Of a DNA stretch of 64,000 nucleotides, positions 16,120-62,810 are shown in pieces. The notes beneath the pieces were generated by a model. The model made no database searches and was not told the DNA's origin. It saw only the letters and a program-made list of their open reading frames with translations. Origin of the DNA: Sedimentisphaerales bacterium (GTDB lineage: Bacteria; Planctomycetota; Phycisphaerae; Sedimentisphaerales; SM23-30); NCBI GenBank assembly GCA_016928435.1, contig JAFGKT010000075.1:28489-92488 (forward strand). Reading direction: 5' to 3'. The position numbers and the translations under genes are program-made. Within the stretch, counting starts at the first letter, position 1; every line of letters starts with the position of its first letter.

Positions 16120-16175
16120 TTAGCCCCCGAACGTAAGCAATATTTATATTGCTCTAGCTCGGCGGTTCAAACTCC
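16120..16175 (-). repeat. Dispersed hairpin element, family 1, long form, inverted copy
   Basis: Read on the minus strand it starts near GTTTGAACCGCCGAGCT, has an inserted stem around AATATAAATATT and ends CGTTCGGGGGCTAA. It is the only family-1 copy left of the skew switch and the only one on the minus strand. It matches the long form at 50764-50825. It lies between larE and the downstream convergent gene. Confidence 0.8.
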
Positions 16176-16192
16176 AATCCACAATCAATCGC

Positions 16193-17419
16193 CTAACCAT
16201 CTCCTCGATAAACTACTGTACCCCCCACCATCGTCAACTTCACCTGCCCATCGCCATCCAAAATATCCGCCGGCACATCCTCCGCGCCAATCCCCCGATC
16301 ACTAACCGCAACCGCCACAATATCCGCAGCCTTACCAACCGCCAGCGACCCAATCTCATCGGCCCAACCCAACGCCCGCGCGCCGTTAATCGTACCCATC
16401 GCCAATATCGTCTCCGCCTCAAGCTGCGGATAACGCCGCCGCAAAAAACGCATCTCATCAAGAATGCTCAGCGAATCATTACTAGCCAAGCTGTCCGTCC
16501 CCAAACAAACATTGATCCCCATCGCCAGCATTTCCCGAAACCGATGATTGCGATGCCCAAAAAAATCCGCCGAACGCGGACAATACGCCACACTGTGCCC
16601 CCGCCCCGCCAACAAAGCCAAATCCTCATCGTCCGCGTAATTCACATGCGCCAACAAAAAATCACGCCCCGAAAGCTCCATCCCCAAAAAATACCGGATC
16701 GGCGAAACCCCAACCGGCTCAAAACTCCCATCCCATCTTCCAATCCTCTTCAAATACGCAGGCCAAATCCCCGAACCGTCCCGCAAAAAATCCGCCTCCG
16801 CCACCGTCTCCGCCAAATGCGTCGTCAGCAAAACATCACACTCCGCCGCCGCTTCATACAACTTTCGATTCGTCGAATACGGCGCATGAGGCGACACCCC
16901 CACTCGCATCAACCCATCATCACTCCGCTCCCACACACACTGCGCCAAATAATCCAAAGGCCCCACAACATCCTCCCGCAACCCAATCAGCTCCGCGAAC
17001 GCCACCTTACGAATCCCACTCTTAGCCAACTCCGCCCGCGCCCGATTCTCATGGCTAATATCACCAACCGTAGTCACCCCCCCCGCCAACGATGCTTCAC
17101 ATGCCGCACCAATCGTCCCTGCGATATCATCCCCCAACTCCGTCCGCAACTCAACAATCCGCCCCACCCATTCCGTAAAATCACCCTCGAACGGAACCCG
17201 CCCCCCCAAATCCGACAACTCCAAATGTGTATGCCCATTAACCAACCCCGGCAGCAAAACACAATCCGGAAGATCAACCACCGCCGCCCCAGAAAACTCC
17301 CCCAACAAATCACTATACTCACCAACCCCCAAAATCCGCCCACCATCAACAGCAACCCCCCCCCGCCCAACAGCAGCAGCCCCACCCAACCAAACACTAT
17401 GCCCACGTAATATCAACAT
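16193..17419 (-). CDS. mqnX: Amidohydrolase, probable aminodeoxyfutalosine deaminase
   Basis: A 408-residue metal-dependent amidohydrolase. Metal ligands are visible in NGHTHLELS, TTHLAET, LLAHVNYADD and GTDSLASND, with the C-terminal beta domain ending KAADIVAVAV. This set fits the ATZ/TRZ-type deaminases, including aminodeoxyfutalosine deaminase. mqnC and mqnA lie 3 kb away on the same strand, which makes the menaquinone role likely; guanine or adenosine-type deamination remains possible. ATG 17419 is preferred over GTG/TTG codons just upstream. The gene contains long G tracts on the sense strand. Confidence 0.65.
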   Translation of the reverse strand: MLILRGHSVWLGGAAAVGRGGVAVDGGRILGVGEYSDLLGEFSGAAVVDLPDCVLLPGLVNGHTHLELSDLGGRVPFEGDFTEWVGRIVELRTELGDDIAGTIGAACEASLAGGVTTVGDISHENRARAELAKSGIRKVAFAELIGLREDVVGPLDYLAQCVWERSDDGLMRVGVSPHAPYSTNRKLYEAAAECDVLLTTHLAETVAEADFLRDGSGIWPAYLKRIGRWDGSFEPVGVSPIRYFLGMELSGRDFLLAHVNYADDEDLALLAGRGHSVAYCPRSADFFGHRNHRFREMLAMGINVCLGTDSLASNDSLSILDEMRFLRRRYPQLEAETILAMGTINGARALGWADEIGSLAVGKAADIVAVAVSDRGIGAEDVPADILDGDGQVKLTMVGGTVVYRGDG

Positions 17420-17688
17420 CACCAAAGTGTATCAGCTCCCCCACCACGGTCAACTTCAAAGAGATCACAACTTTCTACCATTACATTCAGTTATCCAAGA
17501 TAACACCCTTGTTTGCAGTCTCTCCTACTGATATACTACCTGCGATCTAGGGTATTTGTCTGGTCGGGCCATATTCGTATGGCCAAATTTGAGTGTTTAC
17601 TCGCAAGCCGTTAAGAACACAATGTTGACATACTTTAGACATAGCGGGCTGGTTTAAATGGGCTAAAAAGAGAACAGAGGCCAAAACG

Positions 17689-19125
17689 ATGAAAATTGGA
17701 CGAAATCAAAAATGTCCTTGTGGGAGCGGAAAGAAGTACAAGCATTGTTGTGCCAAACCTGAGCCATCGTTTGACCCGGTTATTGCAGCTACTGAATTGA
17801 GCTTACGTGATCGAAACATCATCTTATTTAATGAAATCTTTGATATTTTTAAGATAAATGAGGGAATTGACTGGTCAGATATCCAATCAACAATATCTGA
17901 CGACCAAATTCGTCATATGTATCAAATTGTTGCAGATTTGTGGCACTATAAAACAGACATCGGGTCACTATTGCCCAAGCCAGATAACAAGCTTCGCGCA
18001 TTGTATCAAGGCGACATCGCTCCTGAACTTCTGGTGAGAAATGTATTTCGATTTAGTCTTTATGCTGATGAAATTCTTGTGGTTAGCCCATTCTTAAATC
18101 CATGGGGAATAAGAGAAGAATATAATCCCATAGATAATCCTGCGCAGCATAAGGTGGATGCACTCAAACTTGTCTTCTTCGCAATACAAATGGCACCTTG
18201 GATAGATGCCGGGCTAGTTAATCTCATACCAGACCCCAGCGATTATGATCATCAACTGAAAATACGTACTTGGAAAATGGCAGAGCAACGAATAAAAAAA
18301 GATATGCCGACAGACGAAGATATGGCTCCAGAATTGAATCGTACCGAAGAAGAACTCCGTTCTATTCTGCTTGCATCACCTAATGAATATCTTATCAGAA
18401 AAATGAGGCAATACAACTCTGACGTATCGGAAAAGGAAATTAAAGGCGCACTTGAATATGTGGATCAGTTACGAGAACAATCCCTATTTATGCCTATGCA
18501 GACTTTAGATATGATGGGGCCCCAATTACTTTCACTTCGTTTAGGTGTGAATCTAGAAATGGCATTGTATCTATGCCAAAGCACTGGTGCATTTCCGTAT
18601 ACAAATGTCAAATATAGATGGAAAGAGCTACAGTCCGTCAAAGAATCATTGCCTACCGATGCAGAAATCTGGACCCCATTGACCAAAGCATTTTCTGATT
18701 TAGATTTTAGGTTCCTTGATAACATTAATACATCCTTCGCGTGCAATATGCGTAAGGAGAATAGATTGGAAGGTTTCCGTACGTTTTTGCGACGAATGTG
18801 GTCTACTCTTAACAACGAAGATGACTTAACCAAACTTCAATCCAAATCCAGAGATTTTGCAGATGAGCTATCAGATGAATATCACAAAGCTAAAGCAGAA
18901 TGGGACAAGATTGACACCGATTTGATTAAATGGCTTGGGGGGACCATCTCTACTGGAATTGGAGCTAGCGGATTAGGAGCAATTATTGATGGCAAACTTG
19001 GAATCGCGGCTGGAGCGTCGTTTGCCATAAAGGCGGTAACTGAACTAGTTGCCGCAAAAAGAAACCGAAGGTCGTTCCGCGAGAAAGTTCCAATGTCTGT
19101 ATTCATAGATTTGAACGGAAAATAA
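17689..19125 (+). CDS. SEC-C motif protein of unknown function
   Basis: A 478-residue protein that opens with a SEC-C zinc-binding motif (CPCGSGKKYKHCC, Cys9, Cys11, His19/Cys20, Cys21), as in the SecA tail and many accessory proteins. The remaining body is not recognised. It is mostly helical and acidic, and a Gly/Ala-rich hydrophobic stretch (about residues 418-450, including GIGASGLGAIIDG) could insert in a membrane. GAGG stands 10 bases before the ATG. Base and codon use are clearly more AT-rich than the neighbours, and it points opposite to the menaquinone genes on either side, suggesting acquisition by transfer. Confidence 0.6.
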   Translation: MKIGRNQKCPCGSGKKYKHCCAKPEPSFDPVIAATELSLRDRNIILFNEIFDIFKINEGIDWSDIQSTISDDQIRHMYQIVADLWHYKTDIGSLLPKPDNKLRALYQGDIAPELLVRNVFRFSLYADEILVVSPFLNPWGIREEYNPIDNPAQHKVDALKLVFFAIQMAPWIDAGLVNLIPDPSDYDHQLKIRTWKMAEQRIKKDMPTDEDMAPELNRTEEELRSILLASPNEYLIRKMRQYNSDVSEKEIKGALEYVDQLREQSLFMPMQTLDMMGPQLLSLRLGVNLEMALYLCQSTGAFPYTNVKYRWKELQSVKESLPTDAEIWTPLTKAFSDLDFRFLDNINTSFACNMRKENRLEGFRTFLRRMWSTLNNEDDLTKLQSKSRDFADELSDEYHKAKAEWDKIDTDLIKWLGGTISTGIGASGLGAIIDGKLGIAAGASFAIKAVTELVAAKRNRRSFREKVPMSVFIDLNGK

Positions 19126-19230
19126 ACTATTCAATCAGCCGACCAGGAAGGCCTCATCAGCCCATGCTGTTTGGTTTTGGGGTACAAGACTTGTTAGGCT
19201 GGAATTTTCGCAACCGTCCGCGCGTAGTGC

Positions 19231-20004
19231 CTAGACTTTGACGTACTTTCGCCCGTTGATCTGAGGCAGCCGCGATTGCGCCGGCCCCGTGCGAGTGGTT
19301 CCCGTCTCTGGAGCTGCGAGCTGTTGCTCCATCAGCATTTCCTCAAGATCACCAGCTTTATTTTCGCGTTCCAGGCTTTCCATGAACTCTTCCGCGGTCT
19401 TCAAACGCCGCCGGGCCAGTTCGCGCACCGAATCAAACCGAAAACTCTCGCGCAGCCGCGCCGACCAGTAATCGTATTCGATCTTGCGTTTCCAGCTCAC
19501 CAACGCATCGCTGGCACCCCGCCCATGCACCACATACCGGCGGAACTCGTTAAAAATCCCCACTGCCCCCATATCATCCAAATTGCGCGCATCCGAAAGT
19601 ATCATCGCTTCGATCAGCGTCGTAGAACGATTCCCAGACTCAATAACAATACTGCAAACCCGCTCCATCTGCCGCGGGTTGATCAATTCCTGCAATTTCT
19701 CCTGGATAATCTGAGCCGAAAAGTCCCGCAAATCCTCATCGGTAAGGTCGGCTAACACCATCCGCGCCGCCCGATCCTCCTGGTTGGCGTACCGGGCGAA
19801 GCCCGCGTCCCGGAAAAGAGCCGCGATATTCAAGCATTCCTGGTCCACCTGGAACCGCTGCGTATCGGGCAACCGAGCGATACTGCCGCAATGGCGCATT
19901 ACCCGCCGGGCACGATCGATGAGGTAACGGTCGGGCGTACCCTTTATGGTAGGAACTGCTAGAACTTGATCGGATATTTCCTGAATTACGCCTAGATTGG
20001 CCAT
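19231..20004 (-). CDS. HD-superfamily-like protein with altered active-site residues
   Basis: A 257-residue protein whose layout resembles the YedJ-type HD phosphohydrolases: RARRVMRHCGSIARL, LNIAALFRDAGF, DARNLDDMGAVGIF and a C-terminal helix with FMESLERENKA. In the family the second motif reads HD; here it is RD, and the first histidine is replaced by arginine. The late aspartate (DARNLDD) is kept. The protein may be catalytically dead or have changed chemistry. ATG 20004 (MANLGV) is chosen because AGGAG stands 6 bases before it; a TTG lies 18 bases upstream. Confidence 0.55.
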   Translation of the reverse strand: MANLGVIQEISDQVLAVPTIKGTPDRYLIDRARRVMRHCGSIARLPDTQRFQVDQECLNIAALFRDAGFARYANQEDRAARMVLADLTDEDLRDFSAQIIQEKLQELINPRQMERVCSIVIESGNRSTTLIEAMILSDARNLDDMGAVGIFNEFRRYVVHGRGASDALVSWKRKIEYDYWSARLRESFRFDSVRELARRRLKTAEEFMESLERENKAGDLEEMLMEQQLAAPETGTTRTGPAQSRLPQINGRKYVKV

Positions 20005-20171
20005 CGCGGACTCCTGTGCCAATTGTCATCTATGCCAAAAACCAAGGCGACCCAGCGGCAAAAAGAGCATTCCCCGCTAAACTCGCCATTTAGCATATAT
20101 CGGCCCGACCATCGACAATCCTTGAATCCCACCGACCAAACAGTCCCATTCCGCTCAAAATCCGCGTCAGT

Positions 20172-20225
20172 GAAAAAAGGGGACTGGCTCCGCAGCGTCA
20201 GCGGAGGTGCCTGTACCCTTTTTTC
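20172..20225 (-). terminator. Symmetrical hairpin after mqnC, terminator-like on both strands
   Basis: GAAAAAAGGG (20172-20181) and CCCTTTTTTC (20216-20225) flank an inner perfect stem CTCCGC/GCGGAG (20188-20193 with 20201-20206). On the minus strand this gives a GC stem followed by TTTTTT starting just after the mqnC stop. Arms with A and T runs work in both directions. Confidence 0.65.
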
Positions 20226-20227
20226 GC

Positions 20228-31330: not shown

Positions 31331-32356
31331 TCAAGGTAAAGGCGAGTTCTTCTTACCCAACAACTCCGCCAGTGGACGCAATTTGCTCATTAGATTTGAA
31401 AAGTCATCAAACGTAAGCGCCTGCGGGCCGTCACAAAGGGCGCTTTTGGGATCGGGATGGACTTCGATTATGACCCCGTCGGCCCCGGCCGCGACTGCCG
31501 CCTGCGCTAACGGCGCTACTGCCCAATTTACCCCGGCTGCGTGGGATGGGTCCACAACGACCGGCAAATGCGACAAGCGCTTTATCACCGCCGCGGCGGA
31601 AATATCCAATGTGCTGCGTGTAGCTGTTTCAAATGTACGAATGCCTCGTTCGCAAAGGATCACATCGAAATTGCCTTGCGAGACGATGTACTCAGCGGCC
31701 TGGAGCAATTCCTCCACCGTGGCGGACATGCCTTTTTTGAGCAGAATGGGTTTGCCGACCTTGCCCGCGGCTTGGAGCAATGAGAAGTTCTGCATGTTAC
31801 GAGCGCCGATTTGCAAAACATCCGCGTATTCAGCAACCAATGGCAAAGTCTCAGTATCTTTCACTTCGGTAACGATGGGTAAACCGGTTTCGTCGCGGGC
31901 TTGGGCCAATATCTTCAGGCCCTCTTCCGCCATGCCTTGAAAGCTGTACGGATTCGTTCGCGGCTTGAACGCGCCGCCTCGCAACAATTGGGCCCCGGCT
32001 TTTTTTACCGCTTTCGCTGTCGCTAGAACCTGCTCATGCGACTCAACCGAACAAGGACCCGCGATAACCGTTAGAACATCGCCGCCGATTTTATGATCGC
32101 CAACCTTAACAATGGTGTCTTCGTGCTTGACTTCACGTGATACCAATTTGTAAGGACGCGACACCCGTACGCACTGGGCGATCCCTTCGTGCAGCGCGAA
32201 AACTTCCGGATCGATAGCGGTCTGGTTGCCGGTTATGCCGATGGCCACGCGGGTAGAGCCGGGAATCTTGTTGGGAGTGAAACCTAAGTTGCGAATATGT
32301 TGGCAGACCTGCTCAACCTGTTGGGCGGTGGCATCGTTACGCATTACGATAAGCAT
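31331..32356 (-). CDS. aroF: 3-deoxy-7-phosphoheptulonate synthase (AroA/AroF type I-beta)
   Basis: First enzyme of the shikimate pathway, condensing PEP and erythrose 4-phosphate. The 341-residue protein has an N-terminal ferredoxin-like regulatory domain (MLIVMRNDATAQQVEQV to about residue 70) as in the Thermotoga enzyme. The barrel has VIAGPCSVES, LLRGGAFKPRTNPYSF, ADVLQIGARNMQNF, KPILLKKGMSAT, CERGIRTFE and VVDPSHAAG. The N-terminal domain allows feedback control by aromatic amino acids in the family. It is the last leftward gene before the change of base skew. Confidence 0.95.
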   Translation of the reverse strand: MLIVMRNDATAQQVEQVCQHIRNLGFTPNKIPGSTRVAIGITGNQTAIDPEVFALHEGIAQCVRVSRPYKLVSREVKHEDTIVKVGDHKIGGDVLTVIAGPCSVESHEQVLATAKAVKKAGAQLLRGGAFKPRTNPYSFQGMAEEGLKILAQARDETGLPIVTEVKDTETLPLVAEYADVLQIGARNMQNFSLLQAAGKVGKPILLKKGMSATVEELLQAAEYIVSQGNFDVILCERGIRTFETATRSTLDISAAAVIKRLSHLPVVVDPSHAAGVNWAVAPLAQAAVAAGADGVIIEVHPDPKSALCDGPQALTFDDFSNLMSKLRPLAELLGKKNSPLP

Positions 32357-32662
32357 TGATGATAACCTCTGTGTTTGGAACGCTTAAGGGAACCTCTGAT
32401 AATTCAATTTTGGCTGAGATGCGGAATGGGCATACATACAATAGATATTAACACTGGAGATATCATCGGCATTTGGGGCGGAGCAGGCAAGGGGTAATTT
32501 GTTCGGATGCTCCGTGGTAGAAATCGAATAATTGTGTTATTGGGGCCTTGCAAGTGATGCGATATTGGAGTATATTAGATGGTTTACGGCTTGGTGCAAG
32601 TGAAGTAAGTTCCGCCGAGTAAATGATTTACGTTTTCTATTTGTTGAAATTGGAGTTGTTTG
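32357..32662. other. GC-skew switch point, candidate replication origin region
   Basis: Within this 306-base gap the + strand goes from C-rich to G-rich and stays so to the window end. Example 60-base lines: 15901-15960, inside a + strand gene, has 24 C and 12 G; 38161-38220, inside a - strand gene, has 31 G and 8 C; 32461-32520 has 23 G and 10 C. The direction of change is the one seen at bacterial origins. No DnaA box matching TTATCCACA was found in the gap, so its role is inferred from composition only. Confidence 0.45.
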
Positions 32663-32740
32663 ATGGGTAAACCCAGACGTCGTCGTAAGGTCGGTAGCAA
32701 AAAACGTCGTGCTCGCTGGAAGGTACGCAATCGCAAGTAA
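32663..32740 (+). CDS. Very small, strongly basic protein (ribosomal THX/bS22-like)
   Basis: A 25-codon gene reading MGKPRRRRKVGSKKRRARWK then VRNRK and a stop; 16 of 25 residues are Arg or Lys. GGAG stands 7 bases before the ATG. Composition and size are like the small ribosomal proteins THX and bS22, which bind rRNA in the 30S subunit, but the sequence is too short to assign. A rho-independent terminator lies about 150 bases downstream. It is the first gene right of the skew switch. Confidence 0.6.
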   Translation: MGKPRRRRKVGSKKRRARWKVRNRK

Positions 32741-32833
32741 TTAGACACTTGGGGCTAAGTTGGGCAACGATAGCTTTTCTACGTAAAATGCTTATTGCTA
32801 GAGACTTAAAGCGTATATACAGCTAGTTTTCGC

Positions 32834-32854
32834 GTGTGCAAACAAGTTGCACAC
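32834..32854 (+). repeat. Short palindrome, family 3, copy A
   Basis: GTGTGCAA and TTGCACAC around ACAAG, followed by CCCTACGG. The same element recurs at 35915, 44710 and 45685, always intergenic. Confidence 0.8.
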
Positions 32855-32888
32855 CCTACGGGCTGAAGATAAAGTGATGTACATTAAG

Positions 32889-32915
32889 AACACCCGAAGC
32901 AATTTGGGTGTTTTT
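32889..32915 (+). terminator. Rho-independent terminator
   Basis: AACACCC (32889-32895) pairs with GGGTGTT (32906-32912), followed by TTTTT. It probably ends the transcript of the small basic gene at 32663. Confidence 0.7.
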
Positions 32916-32959
32916 CTATGCGCAGTTCGGGGCAAAAAAGAGAACACAGACATATCAGA

Positions 32960-33245
32960 AACGCGCGGGGCGCTGCAACGCAATGAAACAACAGTGCGGT
33001 GGTTTTGGGGGTAGCGAAAATGAGAGATTTGTTGGGATACAGGCGCGCTTGGTTTCGTAGGTGGGCGTATGAGGACGGGAAGTGAGATGCGCAAAGGTTT
33101 GGCGGGAGCGCGCGGGAGTGGGATAGGTGAGAATGGACGATCAAAAACTAGCAGAAATTTGTCGGTTTTGATTGGTTTTGGTTAGAAATGGGGCTGGAAT
33201 TTTCAGAAATTCGGAAGTTTTTTGGGGGTGGCTGATTTTGCGCGG
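32960..33245 (+). repeat. Diverged ~300-bp repeat, family 4, copy 1
   Basis: This non-coding stretch shares ordered blocks with 61107-61447: CGCGCGGGGCG near the start, AATGAGAGA..GTTGGGATA with GCGCGCTTGGT, then AGAAA..GTCGGTTTTGAT..GGTTTTGG, and GGGGTGGC with TGCGC at the end. Open frames inside are not conserved between copies. No function is recognised; a structured RNA or decayed mobile element is possible. Confidence 0.7.
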
Positions 33246-33280
33246 TTTGGTAGGTATTAGTTTTGCGCAATGAGGAACCG

Positions 33281-33455
33281 AACCACGAATGGACACAAAT
33301 ATTCGCTAATAAATTGGCTCCGCAGTATCTATTGATGATTGTTTTTCAATATCATTTTTGATTACTAAAACAATATTGATGGATACCAATGGACACGAAT
33401 AAAGGCATGATTGTAGTTCATTGGTGGTTGCAAAAGCATGAACGGTTACGGAATT
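33281..33455 (+). repeat. Diverged ~180-bp repeat, family 5, copy 1
   Basis: Shares with 56473-56655 the ordered pieces AACCAC.AATGG.CAC, AAT.GCTCCGC, GCATCTATTGAT/GTATCTATTGAT, TTTTCAATATC, CACGAATAAAGGCAT, CATTGGTGGTTGC and GGTTACG. It lies about 90 bases before an ECF sigma gene; the other copy lies about 70 bases before an anti-sigma kinase gene. Confidence 0.75.
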
Positions 33456-35560: not shown

Positions 35561-35610
35561 GTTCGAACCCCCCGGTGTGTGACGTGCGGAGCTAAAAGTT
35601 TCGGTTGTGG
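35561..35610 (+). repeat. Hairpin element, family 1, degenerate copy
   Basis: Keeps the left flank GTTCGAACCCCCCG and a later GCTAAAAGTTT, but the stem arms are eroded. It lies 41 bases before an intact copy. Confidence 0.5.
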
Positions 35611-35650
35611 TTGGTGTTCCATAGGTGATTTGGTTTGTTTTGCACAGGGA

Positions 35651-35688
35651 ATTCTAACCCCCGAACATGAAGTTCGGGGGCTAACTTT
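35651..35688 (+). repeat. Hairpin element, family 1
   Basis: Arms CCCCCGAAC and GTTCGGGGG around ATGAA, then CTAACTTTGGGG. Perfect 9-base-pair stem. Confidence 0.85.
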
Positions 35689-35825
35689 GGGGTATGGAAG
35701 GTTGGCGGGATTGGATAAAGGTTAGTGAGGACATAAGGGGTGATGGATTTTTTTGTTGGGTTGATTTGCTTTTTGGGGAATTGAATTGTAGGGTATAGGT
35801 GATCTTCTTCTTCTCTTTCTCTAAA

Positions 35826-35852: not shown

Positions 35853-35914
35853 GCGCAGGCGGGGTTATTATCGGGCGTGGGTGGGGGGCGATATGGCGAT
35901 ACAGGATATGGTGC

Positions 35915-35935
35915 GTGTGCAAACTAGTTGCACAC
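35915..35935 (+). repeat. Short palindrome, family 3, copy B
   Basis: GTGTGCAA and TTGCACAC around ACTAG, followed by CCCTACGGG. Confidence 0.8.
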
Positions 35936-36021
35936 CCTACGGGTTGGTGGTATTATTGGAGATTGTTGGGCAAGGAAATCTGTTTTTTGACTGAGGGCGA
36001 AAACGCAGAACAGGGAGCAAG

Positions 36022-41913: not shown

Positions 41914-41952
41914 TTTGATATTCAGCGGCGGGCACGACCCGCGGTAGCACAG

Positions 41953-41995
41953 GGTTCTAACCCCCAGAATGAACCTGAGGGCTAACGTTGGGTAC
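41953..41995 (+). repeat. Hairpin element, family 1, between sigma and anti-sigma genes
   Basis: GGTTCTAACCCCCAGAATGA then ACCTGAGGGCTAACGTTGGG. Arms CCCcCAG and CTGaGGG differ from the CCGAAC type in both halves. It lies inside a sigma/anti-sigma operon, antisense to it. Confidence 0.75.
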
Positions 41996-42780: not shown

Positions 42781-43167
42781 CTATTTTAGCCAGATTGTTA
42801 GTAAATATAGTTTAGTTGGGTTATTTTGGCGGTTTTCGGACGTTAAGTCAATGTTAAATTGAGAGTTGGAGTGGTGGGGTGACCCGCAGATTTCGCTGAT
42901 TGACACAGATTTTTGAATCTGCCAGGGGCAAGTATTGGGCATCGGAGGATTTGTTGGGGGCACAAGGTGAGTGATTGGTCAGGGATTTTTGGACAGGATG
43001 ACAGGATGGGCTGGATTTGAATCTGCCAAGGGCGTAAAGGCAGCGATTGGATGGTAAGGAAAGTGAATTTAATTGGATACTACAAGGAGGTCGTTTTAGA
43101 TGATTGACAGGGCTTTGTCTTATCAGAGGCTGGTCGGTTGCGGTGATGGGATTAGGTGGGGAAAGTT
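42781..43167. other. Gap with decayed short repeats
   Basis: This stretch before purB holds two related pieces, CAGATTTTTGAATCTGCCAG (near 42906) and GATTTGAATCTGCCAAGGG (near 43014), plus GGACAGGATGACAGGATGGG. No gene is recognised. Confidence 0.5.
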
Positions 43168-43210
43168 GGGTTCGAACCCGCCGAACTAAAGTTCGGGGGC
43201 TAACGTTGCG
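43168..43210 (+). repeat. Hairpin element, family 1
   Basis: GGGTTCGAACCCGCCGAAC then TAAA and GTTCGGGGGCTAACGTTG. Stem of 9 positions with one mismatch, about 50 bases before purB. Confidence 0.85.
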
Positions 43211-43257
43211 GTTGTTGGCTGGTTGACGGTTGTGGGTTTGGGCGGTATGCTGGGGAC

Positions 43258-44691: not shown

Positions 44692-44709
44692 CGGCAGATA
44701 AATTGCCGC

Positions 44710-44730
44710 GTGTGCCAACAAGTTGCACAC
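44710..44730 (+). repeat. Short palindrome, family 3, copy C
   Basis: GTGTGCCAACAAGTTGCACAC, followed by CCCTACATAG. One base off perfect symmetry. Confidence 0.8.
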
Positions 44731-44782
44731 CCTACATAGCTGATTGGGAAAGACGTGAAGTTGTGATGATGGAGGTGCCGCG

Positions 44783-45676: not shown

Positions 45677-45684
45677 CCAGTTGC

Positions 45685-45705
45685 GTGTGCAAATGAGTTG
45701 CACAC
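45685..45705 (+). repeat. Short palindrome, family 3, copy D
   Basis: GTGTGCAAATGAGTTGCACAC, followed by CCCTACGG. It lies 16 bases before a family-1 hairpin. Confidence 0.8.
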
Positions 45706-45720
45706 CCTACGGTATAATGA

Positions 45721-45760
45721 GTTCGAACCCCCAGGATGAACCTGGGGGCTAACGTTGGGT
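45721..45760 (+). repeat. Hairpin element, family 1, CAGG/CCTG arm type
   Basis: GTTCGAACCCCCAGGATGAA then CCTGGGGGCTAACGTTGGG. The arms CCCCCAGG and CCTGGGGG pair perfectly although both differ from the GAAC/GTTC type. Confidence 0.85.
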
Positions 45761-46967: not shown

Positions 46968-47078
46968 GGTTAACCACGAAGGGCACGAAGATCACGAAGA
47001 GATAGAAGATTAGTGGCCGGGGGCGGGCGGGGGACAAATAGGGACAGGCAGTTGGATGAGATAAGTAATTGCGTCGAT

Positions 47079-47117
47079 TTCGGACCCCCAGAATGAACCT
47101 GGGGGCTAACGTTGGTT
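47079..47117 (+). repeat. Hairpin element, family 1, CAG arm type
   Basis: TTCGGACCCCCAGAATGAA then CCTGGGGGCTAACGTTGG. Arms CCCCCA and TGGGGG pair. Confidence 0.8.
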
Positions 47118-50565: not shown

Positions 50566-50611
50566 TTTTTTGCCTTTTGAGTTTCTTGTAGAATATTTGA
50601 TTAGTTGGATG

Positions 50612-50650
50612 CAGAACCCCCGAACATGAAGTTCGAGGGCTAACGCTTGT
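50612..50650 (+). repeat. Hairpin element, family 1
   Basis: CAGAACCCCCGAACATGAAG then TTCGAGGGCTAACGCTTG. Arms CCCCCGAAC and GTTCGAGGG with one mismatch, just upstream of glmM. Confidence 0.8.
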
Positions 50651-50763
50651 TAAGTATTATGGGGGAATGTGGGGGGAATGTCAAAGGGTTGGTGGGAGGG
50701 AGCCAGAGGCGGGTTAGGGGCGAGAATGGGAGTTGATGGTTGGAGGAAATTAGGATTTAGAAT

Positions 50764-50825
50764 GGGTTCGGACCCCCGAGCTAAAGCAACATAAATATTG
50801 CTTACGTTCGGGGGCTAACATTGGG
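50764..50825 (+). repeat. Hairpin element, family 1, long form
   Basis: GGTTCGGACCCCCGAGCT, then AAGCAA and TTGCTT around CATAAATA, then ACGTTCGGGGGCTAACATTG. The insert adds a second stem. It matches the inverted copy at 16120-16175. Confidence 0.85.
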
Positions 50826-50836
50826 GTGCGAGTGGT

Positions 50837-51751: not shown

Positions 51752-51890
51752 TGGTTTCTCCGATGCTTGGTTCATTCAAGGATAATATGCAGAAGCATAT
51801 TATGGGGGTAAAGAGGGGAAATGTCAAAGGGAAGGTGCGAACCGCGATAAAGGAGACAGTGAGTTCGGTTGGTGAATGGTGTAAGTGAGT

Positions 51891-51923
51891 CAAAACCCCC
51901 TGACAGGTCAGGAGGCTAATTTG
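51891..51923 (+). repeat. Hairpin element, family 1, TGAC/GTCA arm type
   Basis: CAAAACCCCCTGACAGGTCA then GGAGGCTAATTTG. Arms CCTGAC and GTCAGG pair; the flank GGCTAA is kept. Confidence 0.7.
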
Positions 51924-51953
51924 CAGTTGGCACAATGAGTTTGAACCACGGTG

Positions 51954-53538: not shown

Positions 53539-53636
53539 TTATCCACATTATATTTGCAATGATTTTGTATAGACTTATGTCAGAAAAAAAAATCAGACAC
53601 ACAAGTTTTGCACAGGCTAAAGGGGTATGTGGAAAA
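53539..53636. promoter_or_regulatory. Cluster of DnaA-box-like sites upstream of dnaA
   Basis: TTATCCACA (53539-53547, perfect consensus, + strand), TTTTGCACA (53606-53614, + strand) and TTTTCCACA read on the minus strand (53628-53636) all fit TTWTNCACA. They lie 170-270 bases upstream of dnaA in AT-rich sequence. They may be an origin or an autoregulatory site for dnaA. Confidence 0.6.
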
Positions 53637-53867
53637 CCTGTGGAATCGAGATTTCCAGCATTGGTATGGCCGAAAACCAACATGAATCTATCAGAATTTC
53701 ACAAAGAAAAGTAACAGGTGGGTAGGTGCGAATTGCGTAGGGGCGGCTGAAGGCATAGGGGCTGTAGAATATTCAATGGTATTGAAGGGTCAGGGCGTAT
53801 ATTCACCGCAAAAGAGCGTAAAGAAAGGGTTTGTTGGGTTTGCAATGGCGTTGGTGAGGTCAGGGAA

Positions 53868-53884
53868 GCCGGCAGGATGCCGGC
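53868..53884. repeat. GCCGGC hairpin, copy 1
   Basis: GCCGGC and GCCGGC around AGGAT, with AGGTCAGG.A upstream. Repeated at 54012. Confidence 0.7.
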
Positions 53885-53923
53885 GGTACATGGTTGGGAA
53901 ATGGGACCTGATTGGCGTTCGAC

Positions 53924-53948: not shown

Positions 53949-54011
53949 CCACCCAGTAATGGCAAGAAAGGGTTTTGATTGCGTGTACAATGAAGTCGCA
54001 AGGTCAGGAAT

Positions 54012-54028
54012 GCCGGCAAGATGCCGGC
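54012..54028. repeat. GCCGGC hairpin, copy 2
   Basis: GCCGGC and GCCGGC around AAGAT, preceded by AGGTCAGGAAT, matching the flank of the copy at 53868. Confidence 0.7.
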
Positions 54029-54310
54029 GGGACATAGATGGTCTATTTGTTTGGCTTGGGCGGTTGAAGGGGTAATGAGGGGGCATTTCGACGAAGTTTG
54101 AGAAAATTGGATTTTCGTTCAGACGGGATTGTGATCGGTCGATATTGCTTATGGAGAACGGGGTATGGGAATGCTCAAAAGGCTATTGCAGAACAATGTT
54201 TTGCAACTACGCGGACAGTTCGTCTGCTGGGTCGGGGTTGGTATAGGCTAGGGAACGTAGTATATGACCCGGTTTCACTTGAGTTAGGGATTTAGGAAGG
54301 AAAGAGAACC

Positions 54311-54709: not shown

Positions 54710-54767
54710 GAAATGCTGCTTACGTTTTGAAGCTGCGATCGGTTCTGGTTGGGTGCGAATCGGCAAT

Positions 54768-54810
54768 GGGTTCGAACCCGCCGAACATAAAGTTCGGGGG
54801 CTAACAGTGG
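54768..54810 (+). repeat. Hairpin element, family 1
   Basis: GGGTTCGAACCCGCCGAAC then ATAAA and GTTCGGGGGCTAACAGTG. It lies between the STAS gene and rfbC. Confidence 0.85.
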
Positions 54811-54919
54811 GATTGCGGGCAATTCGATTTTGGGGGAGAATGAGGGTCTTTCACCAGGGCGGATAAGGTGATATAATTGATATAGGATTAATGCCTTCAT
54901 AATAAAAGAAAGGGCTGCG

Positions 54920-56444: not shown

Positions 56445-56472
56445 AATATAGGTAAGCGCTCACAGTAAAGAG

Positions 56473-56655
56473 AACCACAAATGGGCACGAATAATAGCTA
56501 ATTTGCTCCGCGGCATCTATTGATTGTTGGTTTTCAATATCGTCTTGATTTTTGATTCCTGAGACGGCACGAATAGGCACGAATAAAGGCATTAGGCATG
56601 GACGGCTATTGTGGTGCATTGGTGGTTGCCTGAGTGTGAATGGTTACGAATATAA
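56473..56655 (+). repeat. Diverged ~180-bp repeat, family 5, copy 2
   Basis: Matches 33281-33455 in the ordered blocks described there, including GCATCTATTGATT, TTTTCAATATCGT, CACGAATAAAGGCATT and GTGCATTGGTGGTTGC. It lies 71 bases before the RsbW-like gene. Confidence 0.75.
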
Positions 56656-57597: not shown

Positions 57598-58451
57598 TGG
57601 CTGATGCGCAAGAAAAAACGAAACAGTCTTGGATCATATCGTTTGTGGGCGGCATTGGCGCTTTGGTGCTGACAGCAAGTCAACAGTTTTTCAGCACAAT
57701 CGGCGGGATGTTCTTGCTGTTGTATGAAGCGGCTTTGGTTACGCTTAGGGGTTTATTTTTGCCTGGCGCGAAGATAGGGCGTGAGGCGTTGTGGTTTCAG
57801 ATGATTCGCGTGGGGGTTCGAGCGATACCGATTATCGTGCTGGTGGAGTTGGCGATTGGAATGATTTTGCCTTTGCAGATGTTTCCGAAGCTGAATGAAT
57901 TCGGTCAGGGCGATCAGATCGCGACTGTGAACGCTATCGCGGCGTTTCGAGAATTGGGGCCTTTGATGACGGCGGTGGTTCTGAGCGGTTTCGCGGGGGC
58001 GAGCATCGCTGCGGAAATCGGGACAATGGTAACCAACGAAGAAATCAAAGCGCTGCAAGCAATGGCGCTGAACCCGGTTAGTTTTCTGGTTGTGCCTCGT
58101 ATGCTGGCGACGATGCTGATGATGGTGGTTTTGACGATATTCGCGGACTTGGTGATGGTTGGCGGCGGCTGGCTGACGGGTATGCGTTTGGGGGTCGATC
58201 CGGATGTCTATTACCAGCTTTCGGTAACAGCGGTGGATATCGCGGGTTTTATAACGGGCTTGGTTAAAGCGGCAATTTTCGGCGTACTCATCAGCTTGAT
58301 CGCTTGCTACCTGGGCTTGTCGGTTAAGGAATGGGAAGGCAGTAACGGTGTCGGCCAAGCAACGACCAATACGGTGGTTTACAGTATTGTCGCGATTATC
58401 GGCGCGGACGCGGTATTTACGGTGATATTCTACGCGTATGGGTTGTTTTAG
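57597..58451 (+). CDS. mlaE: MlaE-type ABC transporter permease
   Basis: A 284-residue inner-membrane permease of the lipid-transport family, with about five to six helices and the conserved region AFRELGPLMTAVVLSGFAG followed by ASIAAEIGTMVTNEEIKAL. It works with the MlaF ATPase and MlaD to move phospholipids across the envelope. Its ATG overlaps the STAS stop, implying coupled translation. Confidence 0.9.
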   Translation: MADAQEKTKQSWIISFVGGIGALVLTASQQFFSTIGGMFLLLYEAALVTLRGLFLPGAKIGREALWFQMIRVGVRAIPIIVLVELAIGMILPLQMFPKLNEFGQGDQIATVNAIAAFRELGPLMTAVVLSGFAGASIAAEIGTMVTNEEIKALQAMALNPVSFLVVPRMLATMLMMVVLTIFADLVMVGGGWLTGMRLGVDPDVYYQLSVTAVDIAGFITGLVKAAIFGVLISLIACYLGLSVKEWEGSNGVGQATTNTVVYSIVAIIGADAVFTVIFYAYGLF

Positions 58452-58536
58452 GAACCCGGAGACAATCGGAAAAGTAAAGTACCCGGCAATGATACTGTAA
58501 TATTGTAGAGACGGAACAAAGGCGAAGAGCAACTCA

Positions 58537-59406
58537 ATGGCAATGGAGCACGAAAACATAAGTGAAGAAGCGGTTATCGAGCTGGACGGCGTAACGAAAA
58601 GTTTCGGTACGCAAAAGGTGCTGGACGGTGTGAATCTTCATGTCAAGCGTGGGGAGATCATGGTGGTAATGGGCGGCAGCGGTTGCGGCAAAAGTACTCT
58701 GCTGAACCACATGATCGGCGCGTTGACTCCTGACAGCGGCAGCGTGAAGTTGTTCGGGCGAGATTACGCAACGATGACTGACGAAGAACTGGCTGAAACA
58801 CGGATGCGTTTTGGTATTTTGTTTCAGTCGGGTGCGTTGATTAGTTCATTGACGATCGGCGAGAACGTAGCGTTGCCTTTGCGGGAACACAAATCGCTGG
58901 ATGACAACATCATTGATATTATGGTAAAGATAAAGTTGGAGCTGGTTGGTTTGCGTGAGCATGCGGATAAGATGCCGGCGCAGCTTTCTGGGGGCATGAA
59001 AAAGCGCGCGGGTTTGGCTCGGGCGGTTGCGCTAGATCCGCAAATATTGTTTTACGATGAGCCTAGTGCGGGGTTGGACCCGGTGACTAGTGCGCAGATT
59101 GATCAATTGATAATCGCATTGACGCGCAAATTGCACGTAACGAGTGTGGTGGTGACTCACGAGATGGATTCGGCTTTTACGATCGCTGATCGGATGTGCA
59201 TGTTGGATTTGGGGAAAGTCATGCGGATCGGGTCGCGCAAGGAATTTGAGGATTTGCGGGACGCGGCGGACGGCGAGTTGAAGTCCGAGCAGGACTTATT
59301 GATCCGTCAATTTTTGCGGGGCGGGGCAGAAGGGCCGATCACTGACAGACAGCAAAGCAGCGGGTATGCTGACGATTTGTCGTTGGTAGCGACGCGCACA
59401 CAATAG
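58537..59406 (+). CDS. mlaF: MlaF-type ABC transporter ATPase
   Basis: A 289-residue ABC ATPase: Walker A GGSGCGKST, Q loop ILFQSGALISS, signature LSGGMKKRAGLARA, Walker B QILFYDEPSAGLDP and switch VVVTHEMDSAF. The MKKR signature variant is typical of the MlaF/TtgB lipid-transport group. It lies 85 bases after mlaE. The C-terminal ~30 residues extend beyond the core and may contact MlaB. Confidence 0.92.
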   Translation: MAMEHENISEEAVIELDGVTKSFGTQKVLDGVNLHVKRGEIMVVMGGSGCGKSTLLNHMIGALTPDSGSVKLFGRDYATMTDEELAETRMRFGILFQSGALISSLTIGENVALPLREHKSLDDNIIDIMVKIKLELVGLREHADKMPAQLSGGMKKRAGLARAVALDPQILFYDEPSAGLDPVTSAQIDQLIIALTRKLHVTSVVVTHEMDSAFTIADRMCMLDLGKVMRIGSRKEFEDLRDAADGELKSEQDLLIRQFLRGGAEGPITDRQQSSGYADDLSLVATRTQ

Positions 59407-59448
59407 AAATTAACAGAAGTATTAATAAACGGGCAATGGAATTTGAGC

Positions 59449-60777
59449 ATGGCAAAAAGAAGTCTTAACGAGGTAAAAGTCGGCATAACGGTTCTGGCGG
59501 CGCTGGCGTTAACGATGTATATCGTGATAACTTTGGCGGACTGGTCGAATTTGTTTACGACGAAGAACGATATAACGATGTCCCTGCCTTATGATTTGGG
59601 TTTGCAGGGTTTGGATGTCGGCAGTACGGTGTATGTCGGCGGGGCGAAGATAGGGCAGATAGTATCGACGCGTATCGATCCGCCGAGCGCGGACGGCGAC
59701 CCGTGCGCCCTTGATAACGGTAGAGTTTATTTCACGATGCGGATACCGGCATCGTACCCGTTGAGATCTGATTGCCAATTGGCTGTGGAGAGCAATATGC
59801 TGGGCAGTCAGGCGAACCTTGCGATTTACAGCATGGGCACGCGTGATGGTGAGCTTTTGATGGACGGCGCGGTGCAGGAATTGGGGAAAGAAAACTTTTA
59901 TGGCGGCGCGATGGCGAGTCTGATGCGGCGGTTCGATGAAAAAGACCCGTGCAGCTGGATATGCATTATGGACCATCAATTGGATGTAAACGCGAATGAC
60001 AGTCTGTTAGGGAATTTGGTGGCGGCTTCGGCGTCGGTGGAGAGCTTGGCGGCGGCGGTGGATACTGAGCTTACGCTTGATCCGGAAGGGCAATCGGTAC
60101 GAAGTCAGATTCGGGCGATAATTGAAAATATCCGAGTGGTGCTGGCACAGGAACTGGACCGCGAGAACGCGGAAGCGGCTTTGGCGAAGATAAACGCGGC
60201 CTTGGACCGTATGAATTCGATTTTGACCACAACGGATGAATGGACCACGACAAACGCGCCGGTGTTGACGGATACGGTGAGCCATGTGCAGGGAATCGCG
60301 GCGGAGACGCACGAGGCGCTGCCGGGAATAATTGCTCAAGTTGATACAATTTTGGGTAATGTGAACGAGAGTATGGATATTGCCAGGACTGCTCTGCTGG
60401 ACGCGCAGGCGTTGATCAGGGATGGGCGTCAGATGGTGATTGCCAACCGAGCTAAGGTGGATCGGATTGTGGATGATCTGCGTGAGGTGGCGATCAATCT
60501 GCGGGTGACGAGCCGTGAGGTTCGTCGGGCGCCATGGCGGATTCTGTACACGCCTACCAGCGAAGAGATTGAAATGGAAGCGGTAGTGGAAACAGCGGGG
60601 AGATTTGTTTATGGGGCGGAACGATTGAGCGACTTGTCAACAGAGTTGCGGGAAGCGCTGGAAGCGGATGGCGAAGCTGCGGACCCGGAACGGATACAGG
60701 CGATTATAGATCAACTGGAAGAAACGTATGGGCACTTCGAAGAAGTTGAAACGGAACTGTGGGATAGAATCCAGTAG
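59449..60777 (+). CDS. mlaD: MCE-domain substrate-binding protein, MlaD type
   Basis: A 442-residue protein with an N-terminal membrane helix (about 12-31) and an MCE domain starting near residue 38 (ITMSLPYDLGLQGLDVGSTV and YVGGAKIGQIVSTRIDP). The rest is long and helical (about 180-440) with repeated amphipathic helices, longer than E. coli MlaD and more like the extended MCE proteins that form tunnels. It would carry lipid through the periplasm. ATG 59449 is chosen; a TTG lies 6 bases upstream. Confidence 0.85.
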   Translation: MAKRSLNEVKVGITVLAALALTMYIVITLADWSNLFTTKNDITMSLPYDLGLQGLDVGSTVYVGGAKIGQIVSTRIDPPSADGDPCALDNGRVYFTMRIPASYPLRSDCQLAVESNMLGSQANLAIYSMGTRDGELLMDGAVQELGKENFYGGAMASLMRRFDEKDPCSWICIMDHQLDVNANDSLLGNLVAASASVESLAAAVDTELTLDPEGQSVRSQIRAIIENIRVVLAQELDRENAEAALAKINAALDRMNSILTTTDEWTTTNAPVLTDTVSHVQGIAAETHEALPGIIAQVDTILGNVNESMDIARTALLDAQALIRDGRQMVIANRAKVDRIVDDLREVAINLRVTSREVRRAPWRILYTPTSEEIEMEAVVETAGRFVYGAERLSDLSTELREALEADGEAADPERIQAIIDQLEETYGHFEEVETELWDRIQ

Positions 60778-60820
60778 GTCGCGAATCGCGACGGATAGAT
60801 TGACCGACGGTAGATGGTTG
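60778..60820 (+). repeat. Post-stop repeat, family 6, copy 2
   Basis: Starts directly after the mlaD stop: GTCGCGAATCGCGACGGATA then GATTGACCGACGGTAG. GTCGCG and CGCGAC form a perfect stem around AAT. It matches 35511-35555. Confidence 0.75.
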
Positions 60821-60979
60821 GGATAAGACGTTCGGCGTTGGTCACTACTACAAGGAAGTACACGAAAAGACTAGTTTGCCAAAGGCGGGGTTGGTGCGAC
60901 AATGGGGGCGGTTGGTCAGGGATTTTTATCCACAGAGCGGCAATGGGATTTGTTGTTGGTTGGGATTGTGATGGGTAAT

Positions 60980-61020
60980 GAGTTCGAACCCGCCGAACAT
61001 AAAGTTCGGGGGCTAACAGT
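60980..61020 (+). repeat. Hairpin element, family 1
   Basis: AGTTCGAACCCGCCGAAC then ATAAA and GTTCGGGGGCTAACAGT. It lies in the 900-base gap after mlaD, which has no recognisable gene. Confidence 0.85.
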
Positions 61021-61074
61021 TATGATTGTTTGTTGGGGATGATGATTGTTTTGGGGATTTTTGGCGTCAGATAT

Positions 61075-61091
61075 GGTATGCACAGCATACC
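61075..61091 (+). repeat. Palindrome with CCCTAC tail, possible relative of family 3
   Basis: GGTATGC and GCATACC around ACA, followed by CTACAGCGG. It shares the symmetric design and the CCCTAC tail with the GTGTGCAA elements and, like copy A at 32834, precedes a family-4 repeat. Confidence 0.5.
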
Positions 61092-61106
61092 CTACAGCGG
61101 TGATTG

Positions 61107-61447
61107 AGCGCGCGGGGCGGCGAGTGGAAAATGCGCAGAGGCAACCAAGTGCGCGCCTGCGTTAAGGGGGTAATAAATGGGCGCGAAATGGGATAAGTGC
61201 GCGGAATTGAGAAGCGGGAATGAGAGAGTTGGTGGGATATGGGCACGCTTGGTATTAGAGTTGGGAGCTAGGGGCGCGGCATTGCGCAGCGCGAAGGATT
61301 ATCAGGAGCGCGCGGATGCGGGAAGTGGGAAAATTGGCGTTCAGAAATTGACAGAAACTCGTCGGTTTTGATCGGTTTTGGGTAAGAATAGAACGGTTTT
61401 TGGCAGAAATGAAAGCGTTTTTAGGGGTGGCGAATAATGCGCAATTT
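61107..61447 (+). repeat. Diverged ~300-bp repeat, family 4, copy 2
   Basis: Shares ordered blocks with 32960-33245, including CGCGCGGGGCG, AATGAGAGAGTTGGTGGGAT with GCACGCTTGGT, GTCGGTTTTGATCGGTTTTG and AGGGGTGGCGAATAATGCGC. It is 50 bases longer than copy 1. No coding gene is supported in it. Confidence 0.7.
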
Positions 61448-61680
61448 TTTATGGAGCGGATGTGAGAGGGCAGGGAATTGTTTTTGGCTTGATGGGGTTT
61501 TTGCGGGGTGGTATGATTTGGGGGCGGTTGGAATTTTTGCATAGATTGCCAAGAAGTGGATAGGGAAATTGGAAGAATTGAAGGAAGGACATGAAAAATG
61601 TACCGGGGACCTTTAATTCGCGTGAATTGGTTGATTGTATGTTTTAATAGCTCAAGTCTATAAAAGAAACGAGATAGATT

Positions 61681-62553
61681 ATGAATAAACATCTAAGAAC
61701 CTTATTGATTTTAATCGCATTTACATGTGCGATTATTGCTTTATTTGTTTGGACTAATGATGTACCCAAAAAACTGTCAGAGCGTTGGGTGTGGCGTATA
61801 ATTTCAACTGTTGTTTCAGCGGCTTTGACCTTTTTTATTATTTGGTATGAATATTTCAAGTCGCCCAAGGAAGACAAGCATAATACTATTACAATTACAG
61901 AAGAGATAAAATCGAAATTATATTCATTATATGATTCAAGAAAACTAGACTTGCCAGGTGAAATTGAAGCTGGCGACCATTTAGATCACAGTGCCTCGTT
62001 AAGGTCCGTAAAGAAATTCTTTAAACATAAAATAGATCTTTTAAATTTTTATGCTCAATATTCATTTAGTAAATCAATTGAAGACGTTCCCATTGGAGAA
62101 TCTGGCCAATTATGTTTATTAAGTTGGCAAAAATTATATGATGATAAGCGGTCAGCAATTAAAAGCTTGATTTACTCGGTATTGACTTCACTGTTTGGAG
62201 TTGTTGTGTTTGAACGCAAAGTTTTTACGTTTAAAACATTTCATTTGCTGAAAGTTCAGGAGTTGCAAAAGCTTAGATACTTGCATTTGAAACTTTTGGT
62301 GATTGGAATAATAACCCGGATTTCAGTTTATGTATTGTTGTTTATAACGATCTGGTTTTCCTTTAAATGCTTCCTGGGCATGTCAGAAAATTATGTTAAA
62401 AGCATCTCTATCGCCTTACTTTCCATGCTTGGCTTAGGTCTATGTGCGTTTCTGCTATACCAGTCCAAATATGTTTTTCTGCCAAATAAATTAAGACATA
62501 TTTCTCGAAAAGAATTTTTATTATTAAGCATTGACCCGATCCATGGTGTTTAA
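61681..62553 (+). CDS. Four-helix membrane protein of unknown function, AT-rich
   Basis: A 290-residue protein with two membrane helices near the start (about 6-25 and 39-60) and two near the end (about 201-225 and 236-258). Between them lies a charged cytoplasmic region with a moderately hydrophobic stretch at 156-172. No family is recognised. The gene is markedly AT-rich and its third positions are unlike the G-rich neighbours. Repeats flank it on both sides, suggesting a recent insert. No partner gene is adjacent. Confidence 0.5.
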   Translation: MNKHLRTLLILIAFTCAIIALFVWTNDVPKKLSERWVWRIISTVVSAALTFFIIWYEYFKSPKEDKHNTITITEEIKSKLYSLYDSRKLDLPGEIEAGDHLDHSASLRSVKKFFKHKIDLLNFYAQYSFSKSIEDVPIGESGQLCLLSWQKLYDDKRSAIKSLIYSVLTSLFGVVVFERKVFTFKTFHLLKVQELQKLRYLHLKLLVIGIITRISVYVLLFITIWFSFKCFLGMSENYVKSISIALLSMLGLGLCAFLLYQSKYVFLPNKLRHISRKEFLLLSIDPIHGV

Positions 62554-62609
62554 TAATCGCCTTGGTCAACAAAACGGGGGCTGACCTGTCCGCTTTATTC
62601 TGCACAATG

Positions 62610-62650
62610 AGTTTGAACCCCCGAGCGGTGACTCGGGGGCTAACAGTTTG
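62610..62650 (+). repeat. Hairpin element, family 1, GAG/CTC arm type
   Basis: GTTTGAACCCCCGAG then CGGTGA and CTCGGGGGCTAACAG. The arms CCCCCGAG and CTCGGGGG pair perfectly with a different loop. Confidence 0.8.
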
Positions 62651-62770
62651 GATTGTTGGTTAGAGTGATGTTTGTTTTTGGGGATTGGCGGCATCAGGGA
62701 TGGATACCAGGCACTACGCGTGCAGCGGGATTGGCGCTGGTATGACAGAGTCATTACGATATGCACATGG

Positions 62771-62810
62771 TGTTCGAACCCCCGAACATGAAGTTCGGGG
62801 GCTAACGGTT
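62771..62810 (+). repeat. Hairpin element, family 1
   Basis: TGTTCGAACCCCCGAAC then ATGAA and GTTCGGGGGCTAACGG. It is the cleanest copy, 120 bases after the previous one. Confidence 0.85.

Follow-up and report, generated by a model that had tools for sequence, protein, structure and literature searches.

A window of 64,000 nucleotides from Sedimentisphaerales bacterium (assembly GCA_016928435.1, contig JAFGKT010000075.1, positions 28,489 to 92,488) carries a dispersed family of short hairpins that are followed on one strand by the motif CTAA; "the window" denotes this whole stretch throughout. The hairpins are considered likely to be elements of the repetitive extragenic palindromic (REP) type that stand beside a divergent predicted Y1 (HUH) transposase, are probably mobilised by it, and have their CTAA strand on the G-rich strand through single-stranded insertion on the lagging side of the replication fork. 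The strongest new feature is the polarity of the hairpins with GC skew, which follows the sign of the skew and not the direction of the genes. Hairpins and transposase together constitute a system of the REP/REP-associated tyrosine transposase (RAYT) type that is widespread in the order (72/148 genomes).

Hairpin orientation and GC skew

Near 32 kb the GC skew of the window rises from about -0.2 to +0.3. To the left of this flip lies a single copy (16120) on the minus strand, opposite to the other 13, which comprise twelve good copies and one degenerate copy on the plus strand. Across the 61 stretches (1.1 Mb) of the genome that were searched, almost all sites had the G-rich strand as the one reading hairpin and then CTAA. 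Orientation agreed with the sign of the skew for 107/109 copies of at least 40 bits when skew was taken over 2.5 kb on each side, for 106/109 at 5 kb, and for 103/109 at 10 kb; at a threshold of 30 bits the corresponding values were 133/137, 132/137, and 128/137. By subtraction, the 20 weakest copies (24.8-30 bits) were polarised as well (18/20). Agreement was likewise found with skew computed from DNA at a distance of 1-6 kb, every copy being masked by 150 bases (103/109), and with skew computed from intergenic bases (97/97, after 1 of 98 copies with weak intergenic skew was set aside). When copies less than 500 bases apart were collapsed, 116/121 loci agreed with the skew, as did 37/41 when one copy was kept per contig.

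Genes in the same stretches were without skew bias despite the very strong skew (275 with, 309 against, and 52 weak), and copies located between tandem genes followed the skew in 63/65 cases, whichever way the genes ran. The same lean was observed in two other genomes, G027 and G019, even though their mean skews are small (approximately 0.09 and 0.11). At 2.5 kb, 72/84 copies agreed in G027 and 28/33 in G019, with 31/32 and 19/19 agreeing where the absolute skew exceeded 0.1. With intergenic skew the values were 51/61 and 21/23, weak intergenic skew having set aside 23/84 and 10/33 copies, respectively.

Neighbouring copies within 300 bases of each other were co-oriented in every pair across the three genomes (7/7, 25/25, and 6/6, or 38/38), and inverted neighbours at this distance numbered 0/38. 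Inverted neighbours do occur beside transposase genes of relatives (L122). Direct copies were also seen at recurring spacings, 61-64 bases in 9/25 pairs of G027 and 84-92 bases in 8/16 pairs of the present genome (G000). As a yardstick, the GTAG REPs of Escherichia coli K-12 split 27:23 in six 50-kb stretches, a small sample in which many stand in alternating pairs.

In the accessible portions of the open-licence literature on REPs, nothing was found on how REPs are oriented with respect to replication. Published work has already linked a bias in the orientation of transposable elements to replication; a 2014 paper by Gomez, known by its title, reportedly treats their orientation.

Hairpin structure, copy number and paired stem changes

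Direct reading of all 14 sites named in the original prediction yielded 13 true copies and a degenerate one at 35561, exactly as it had stated (Table 1). The 13 copies score 39.6-64.8 bits with a covariance model, a match that holds by construction because the same 13 helped to build the model, and the copy at 35561 falls below detection by the model at E 0.1. A count made without the model, allowing up to 3 mismatches to the right flank GGGGGCTAACGTTG, gave 15 matches in the window versus 5.8 expected, and 0/100 shuffles reached 15. The claim that all copies are intergenic also held, with 0/14 window copies overlapping called genes; some mechanically derived open reading frames (ORFs) do overlap copies. 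In the stretches examined, 2/137 copies overlapped a called ORF. Genes for the overlap, strand, and neighbour counts were obtained with a simple purpose-made gene caller that misses some ORFs.

A genome scan with the covariance model, which had been suggested as a check of the prediction, identified 157 copies in 1.1 Mb of the 3.07-Mb genome (80 contigs, 85% complete), a density that does not extrapolate to the whole genome because the 61 stretches were mostly picked for holding copies. This count was reached after 47 of 204 model matches, those at 24.1 bits or less, were excluded; a first look, which scored only 150 of 1389 candidates, gave a lower bound. The strict pattern GTTCGAACCCN{8,30}GGGGGCTAAC, which is independent of the model, had 21 matches in the genome and 0 when read backwards.

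According to a profile of 128 copies, the conserved unit of approximately 48 bases consists of CA(A/T)TG(A/G)GTTCGAACCCCC, a variable apical stem and loop, and GGGGGCTAAC, beyond which the DNA is G/T-rich with little more conservation. The base of the stem is constant (CCCCC/GGGGGCTAA) and the apical arms vary as matched pairs, forming about nine stem types in the genome when grouped by eye. On the 3' side of the stem stands CTAA, each base at 96-97%, equivalent to TTAG on the 5' side of the other strand, and the consensus profile contains neither a GT[AG]G nor a CGTC foot.

Double-changed stem cells numbered 12 among 16 sequences versus 4.0 in shuffles. Among the 150 best matches they numbered 144 versus 50.5, with 0/500 shuffles as high, and standard pairs occupied 91.6% of pair cells; the number of pairs with double changes in these 150 (6 versus 4.9 in shuffles) is not unusual alone. 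All 157 matches outscore their opposite-strand echoes, so the 150-sequence alignment is free of echoes; its sequences were fitted to the structure, and the relatedness of copies inflates double-change counts. In a model-free count over the three genomes, the three outermost insert pairs were all complementary in 43/64 distinct inserts of the exact pattern, with 15 different arms, compared with 4.8 fully complementary inserts (largest 13) in an arm-shuffled control. The matched changes of the stem arms described in the original prediction are therefore upheld by the double-change counts in both alignments. Of its further proposal, selection for a folded RNA or DNA hairpin, the paired hairpin stands on these counts and on the inserts, and a role as RNA is not supported.

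Table 1. Hairpin copies and the skew sign change in the window (positions are those of the window)
Feature	Position	Strand	Score or basis
Hairpin, long-loop CCGAGC...GTTCGG type, left of skew flip	16112..16178	-	44.4 bits
GC-skew sign change, element orientation differs across it, likely origin region	31500..33250		skew; dnaA 51954-53369 -
Degenerate copy (GTTCGAACCCCCCGGTG...), broken stem	35561..35600	+	direct reading; missed at E 0.1
Hairpin, CCGAAC/GTTCGG type	35645..35692	+	62.1 bits
Hairpin, CCAG/CTGA type, partly decayed	41948..41993	+	50.9 bits
Hairpin, CGCCGAAC/GTTCGG type, extra G in left arm	43164..43211	+	58.1 bits
Hairpin, CCAGG/CCTGG type	45715..45760	+	60.2 bits
Hairpin, CCAGA/CCTGG type	47072..47117	+	49.8 bits
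Hairpin, CCGAAC/GTTCG type	50604..50651	+	51.7 bits
Hairpin, long-loop CCGAGC...GTTCGG type	50760..50826	+	53.5 bits
Hairpin, CCTGA/TCAGG type, the stem type directly 3' of the C72 transposase gene	51883..51927	+	39.6 bits
Hairpin, CGCCGAAC/GTTCGG type	54764..54812	+	63.0 bits
Hairpin, CGCCGAAC/GTTCGG type	60976..61024	+	61.5 bits
Hairpin, CCGAGC/ACTCGG type	62605..62651	+	51.6 bits
Hairpin, CCGAAC/GTTCGG type	62766..62813	+	64.8 bits

Transposase genes beside the hairpins

The genome holds three Y1_Tnp genes, two of which (C41 and C72) belong to one divergent RAYT family, with proteins 44% identical. The C41 gene has a CCGGG-type hairpin on one side and a CCGAAC-type hairpin on the other, the two in direct orientation, while the C72 gene ends in a CCTGA-type hairpin whose stem is identical to that of the window copy at 51883. 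A search for a REP-associated transposase, which the original prediction had pointed to, was thus positive, with two genes of the family adjoining copies. On the minus strand at C72 (L040), the 3' end of the gene together with its hairpin is repeated upstream of the gene (~1970-2056 versus ~1405-1490), as if elements were stacked head to tail.

Across this genome and its relatives, 18/19 transposase genes had a CTAA/TTAA-footed hairpin within 200 bp, seven of them on both sides, versus 8/240 control windows. Nineteen of 25 transposase loci entered this comparison; L113 was left out for sharing a contig with L115, and L129-L133 were left out as weak matches. The hairpins around the gene, direct at C41, are inverted in L110, L112, L117, L121, and L124. 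Five named protein relatives derive from Planctomycetota, Phycisphaerae, and Phycisphaerales metagenome-assembled genomes (MAGs) and are accompanied by nearby hairpins with different stems. The family to which the protein belongs is large, with 5515 matches at E <= 0.001 among 7995 candidates scored.

The C72 protein is predicted to adopt a Y1 (HUH) fold, its structural model matching solved Y1 transposases, including a REP transposase bound to its hairpin. In a survey of 120 family proteins, NHVH and W then T were present in 89. After the HuH motif, the residue at +4 from the presumed catalytic Tyr was His in 95, Gln in 12, and Arg in 1 of the 108 proteins that could be parsed (12 were unparseable). 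This +4 histidine may bind metal.

As a candidate partner, the third Y1 gene (C25; L039, ORF 1462-2169, plus strand) had the top score in both protein-family libraries, yet other repeats (AAAGGGGTCTGACCCCTTT palindromes) surround it, and the hairpin model had no match in the 20-kb stretch around it. This RAYT-like gene with its palindromes is apparently unrelated to the hairpin family.

Distribution in the order

The pattern AACCCCCN{6,24}GGGGGCTAA was present in 72 of the 148 genomes of the order, and the reversed pattern had one match overall. Stem types vary from genome to genome. In a set of 35 genomes, selected because their hairpin counts were either high or zero, all 14 that had a strong transposase match carried six hairpins or more.

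Other repeat families in the genome

Three other repeat families lie mostly on one strand relative to skew. A second, GTAG-footed REP-like family (GTAGGGTGTGCAAC...GTTTGCACACGC; window 32832-32859, 35913-35940, 44708-44735, and 45683-45710, minus strand) has GTAG on the C-rich strand in 17/19 copies, or at 18/19 loci with a wider window. A third hairpin family, GCCGGCAAGATGCCGGCGGTAC (D17; window 53865-53893 and 54009-54037), is on the G-rich strand at 24/24 collapsed loci, as is, at 15/16 loci, a dispersed repeat of ~140 bases around ACGAATGGACACGAATAA with no obvious hairpin (D13; window 33312-33450 and 56477-56648).

Replication direction and proposed mechanism

The identity of the G-rich strand with the leading strand is supported by the placement of rpoB and tuf on the G-rich strand and of a piece of an rRNA operon on the same strand as two hairpin copies. 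The sharp skew flip (Table 1) likely marks the origin region. The dnaA gene lies ~20 kb from the flip and is closely preceded by an exact DnaA box at position 53539, which suggests an origin region; a DnaA-box cluster was sought at the flip and none was found.

The mode by which RAYTs move REPs is unsettled; one proposal, modelled on IS608, is the transfer of single strands coupled to the fork. Fork-coupled insertion of this kind is the explanation we favour here, given an enzyme predicted to act on single strands, a substrate that forms a hairpin, and an orientation set almost completely by the likely replication strand. The transposase would recognise the folded single strand and cleave close to the conserved CTAA (read as TTAG on the opposite strand), and the hairpins would be pasted or copied at the fork; matched arm changes would reflect selection for staying foldable as subfamilies diverge. 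Either strand may be the active one under fork coupling, as both versions fit. If the hairpin-CTAA strand were active, it would enter the exposed lagging-strand template, as in IS608, and the hairpin-then-CTAA reading on the G-rich strand has the sign that fits this route. If the TTAG-hairpin strand were active, Okazaki gaps would be where it is incorporated into the new lagging strand; a reading with TTAG ahead of the hairpin, as in GTAG REPs, would make the new lagging strand the active one. The conserved 5' foot GTAG marks the active strand in E. coli REPs, according to the accessible portion of PMC6006769.

Several observations weigh against fork-coupled insertion or parts of it. If a 5' foot marks the active strand here too (TTAG-hairpin), the simplest IS608-like model, with entry into the lagging template, has the wrong sign; the GTAG-footed family has the same sign as the hairpins, and its GTAG on the C-rich strand in 17/19 copies leans toward the new-lagging-strand version. 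Skew is a proxy for fork direction, mapped origins being outside the sample; tRNA genes, on the G-rich strand in 10/15 cases, give weak backing to its being the leading strand, and dnaA lies on the other strand. Exceptions to polarity amount to 5/121 collapsed loci, of which three lie no more than 400 bp from the end of a contig, and agreement drops at 10 kb in G027 (63/84) and G019 (26/33). Polarity in G027 is not separable from transcription because gene direction there is itself strongly tied to skew (140:35), and hairpin strand is correlated with it as well (p = 0.004).

On the side of the enzyme, both proteins score below the curated cut-off of 80 bits for NCBIfam NF047646 REP_Tyr_transpos (27.6 and 23.9 bits), and against the cut-off of 23 bits for Pfam PF01797 Y1_Tnp the C41 protein falls narrowly below (22.1), with C72 above (25.8). 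The 85% complete assembly has only two transposases of this family for about nine stem types, and 5/21 genomes without a strong transposase match carry 5-108 hairpins (G009, G027, G038, G016, and G060).

Three other explanations were weighed against fork-coupled insertion. The one that survives best, though we think it unlikely, is that a G/T-rich target word is commoner on the leading strand, the polarity arising from composition and uncoupled from the fork. G and T are abundant in the flanks, and words in intergenic DNA show strong asymmetry (GGGG 7.9:1 and TGGGG 10.8:1); these ratios are, however, the best among 240 four-letter and 1024 five-letter words, respectively, whereas the elements reach 107:2 and 97:0. 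A ratio of 32:1 was reached by only 1/3222 six-letter words, the 128-copy flank profile shows no sharp word, and G027 and G019 have the same lean in spite of their low mean skews. The asymmetry of words is too weak for a target word alone to suffice, unless it has six or more letters.

Slightly less probable again is that the host uses the hairpins to mark direction, in the manner of the FtsK-orienting polar sequences (KOPS) or Chi, with polarity kept by selection after unoriented spread. Such a role would suit both the near-complete polarity and the polarisation of the three further families, on the C-rich (GTAG) or the G-rich strand (D17 and D13). That several unrelated repeat families are polarised nevertheless points to a common insertion process rather than to separate host functions, stem types that differ between genomes would be odd for a mark read by a protein, and even the weakest 20 copies are polarised.

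The RNA option of the original prediction, taken here as a transcription terminator, a protector of mRNA 3' ends, or a riboregulator, is very improbable and was not borne out. It draws on the stable stem with compensatory changes and on the 32/111 copies flanked by two genes that lie between convergent genes, versus 66/468 gaps of more than 50 bases generally; a position downstream of genes has nonetheless been described for ordinary REPs too (PMC3733652, accessible portion). Hairpin strand tracks skew and not genes, being independent of gene strand between tandem genes (7/20/18/20, p = 0.12) or, for the exact pattern, leaning against the gene (3/17/14/14, p = 0.016), and the only window matches to Rfam at the gathering score are two tRNAs, with none at the hairpins. 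The lack of a T tract in the 128-copy profile and this independence of gene strand led to rejection of a terminator, as judged without a terminator-prediction scan.

If fork-coupled insertion is the true explanation, the hairpins are a genome-wide record of fork direction, and the spread of REPs is coupled to replication. The well over a hundred skew-following sites would then amount to a genomic test of the fork-coupled transfer idea, while the small enzyme, defined hairpins, and matched stem types offer a system for finding the active strand. REP orientation might also assign fork direction in draft genomes and MAGs.

Comparison with known systems

The assignment to the REP/RAYT type follows from the proximity of hairpins to 18/19 transposase genes compared with 8/240 controls. 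The system is a variant and not a canonical REP, since it has no GT[AG]G/CGTC foot, no inverted doublets, and none of the Y-motifs tabulated for RAYTs. In common with proteobacterial REP/RAYT systems, as described in the accessible portions of Nunvar 2010 (PMC2817692) and Bertels & Rainey 2011 (PMC3116915), it has short intergenic high-copy hairpins, several subfamilies per genome, and a flanked Y1 gene. It differs from them in its TTAG/CTAA foot (theirs is GT[AG]G), its direct neighbours (38/38; theirs are inverted), and its skew-tied orientation. The nearest hint of polarity found in the available REP literature is provided by the tandem arrays of SBW25, five forward near 2 Mbp and six reverse near 4 Mbp (PMC3116915, accessible portion). 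REPINs (REP doublets forming hairpins) and bacterial interspersed mosaic elements (BIMEs) consist of two close inverted REPs, unlike the hairpins examined here, in which 0/38 neighbours in three genomes were inverted.

The closest resemblance among transposases is to TnpA-Y1 class 3, for which the accessible portion of PMC6006769 gives occurrence in Planctomycetes, NHVH, W then T, and atypical flanking high-copy hairpins. That class has Y----Q and the foot CnGA, in contrast to the predominant Tyr-x3-His and the TTAG/CTAA foot found here. The RAYT classes tabulated in the same portion by Quentin et al. 2018 (PMC6006769) have Gln or Asn at Tyr +4, or Y----Q in class 3. Unlike the IS200/IS605 elements IS608 and ISDra2, the repeats are single hairpins and not two-ended elements; in place of the several near-identical transposase copies characteristic of IS200/IS605, the 85% complete assembly contains two that are 44% identical.

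Integron attC sites have the outer order RYYYAAC...GTTRRRY. Judged by eye, the hairpins have outer bases GTT...AAC, in the wrong order, and their GTT/AAC pairing is weak (82% of cells), and attC was dropped as a candidate. With the GTAG- and CGTC-tagged palindromes (Di Nocera 2013, PMC3733652, accessible portion), known from Planctomycetes too, the hairpins share their dispersed, tagged palindromic form; neither tag is present here, and many of those families consist mostly of oppositely oriented units. We see about an even chance that the hairpins and their enzymes represent a REP/RAYT class set apart from those in the literature found, having a TTAG/CTAA foot, a Tyr-x3-His transposase, one orientation relative to the fork, and freely diversifying stems.

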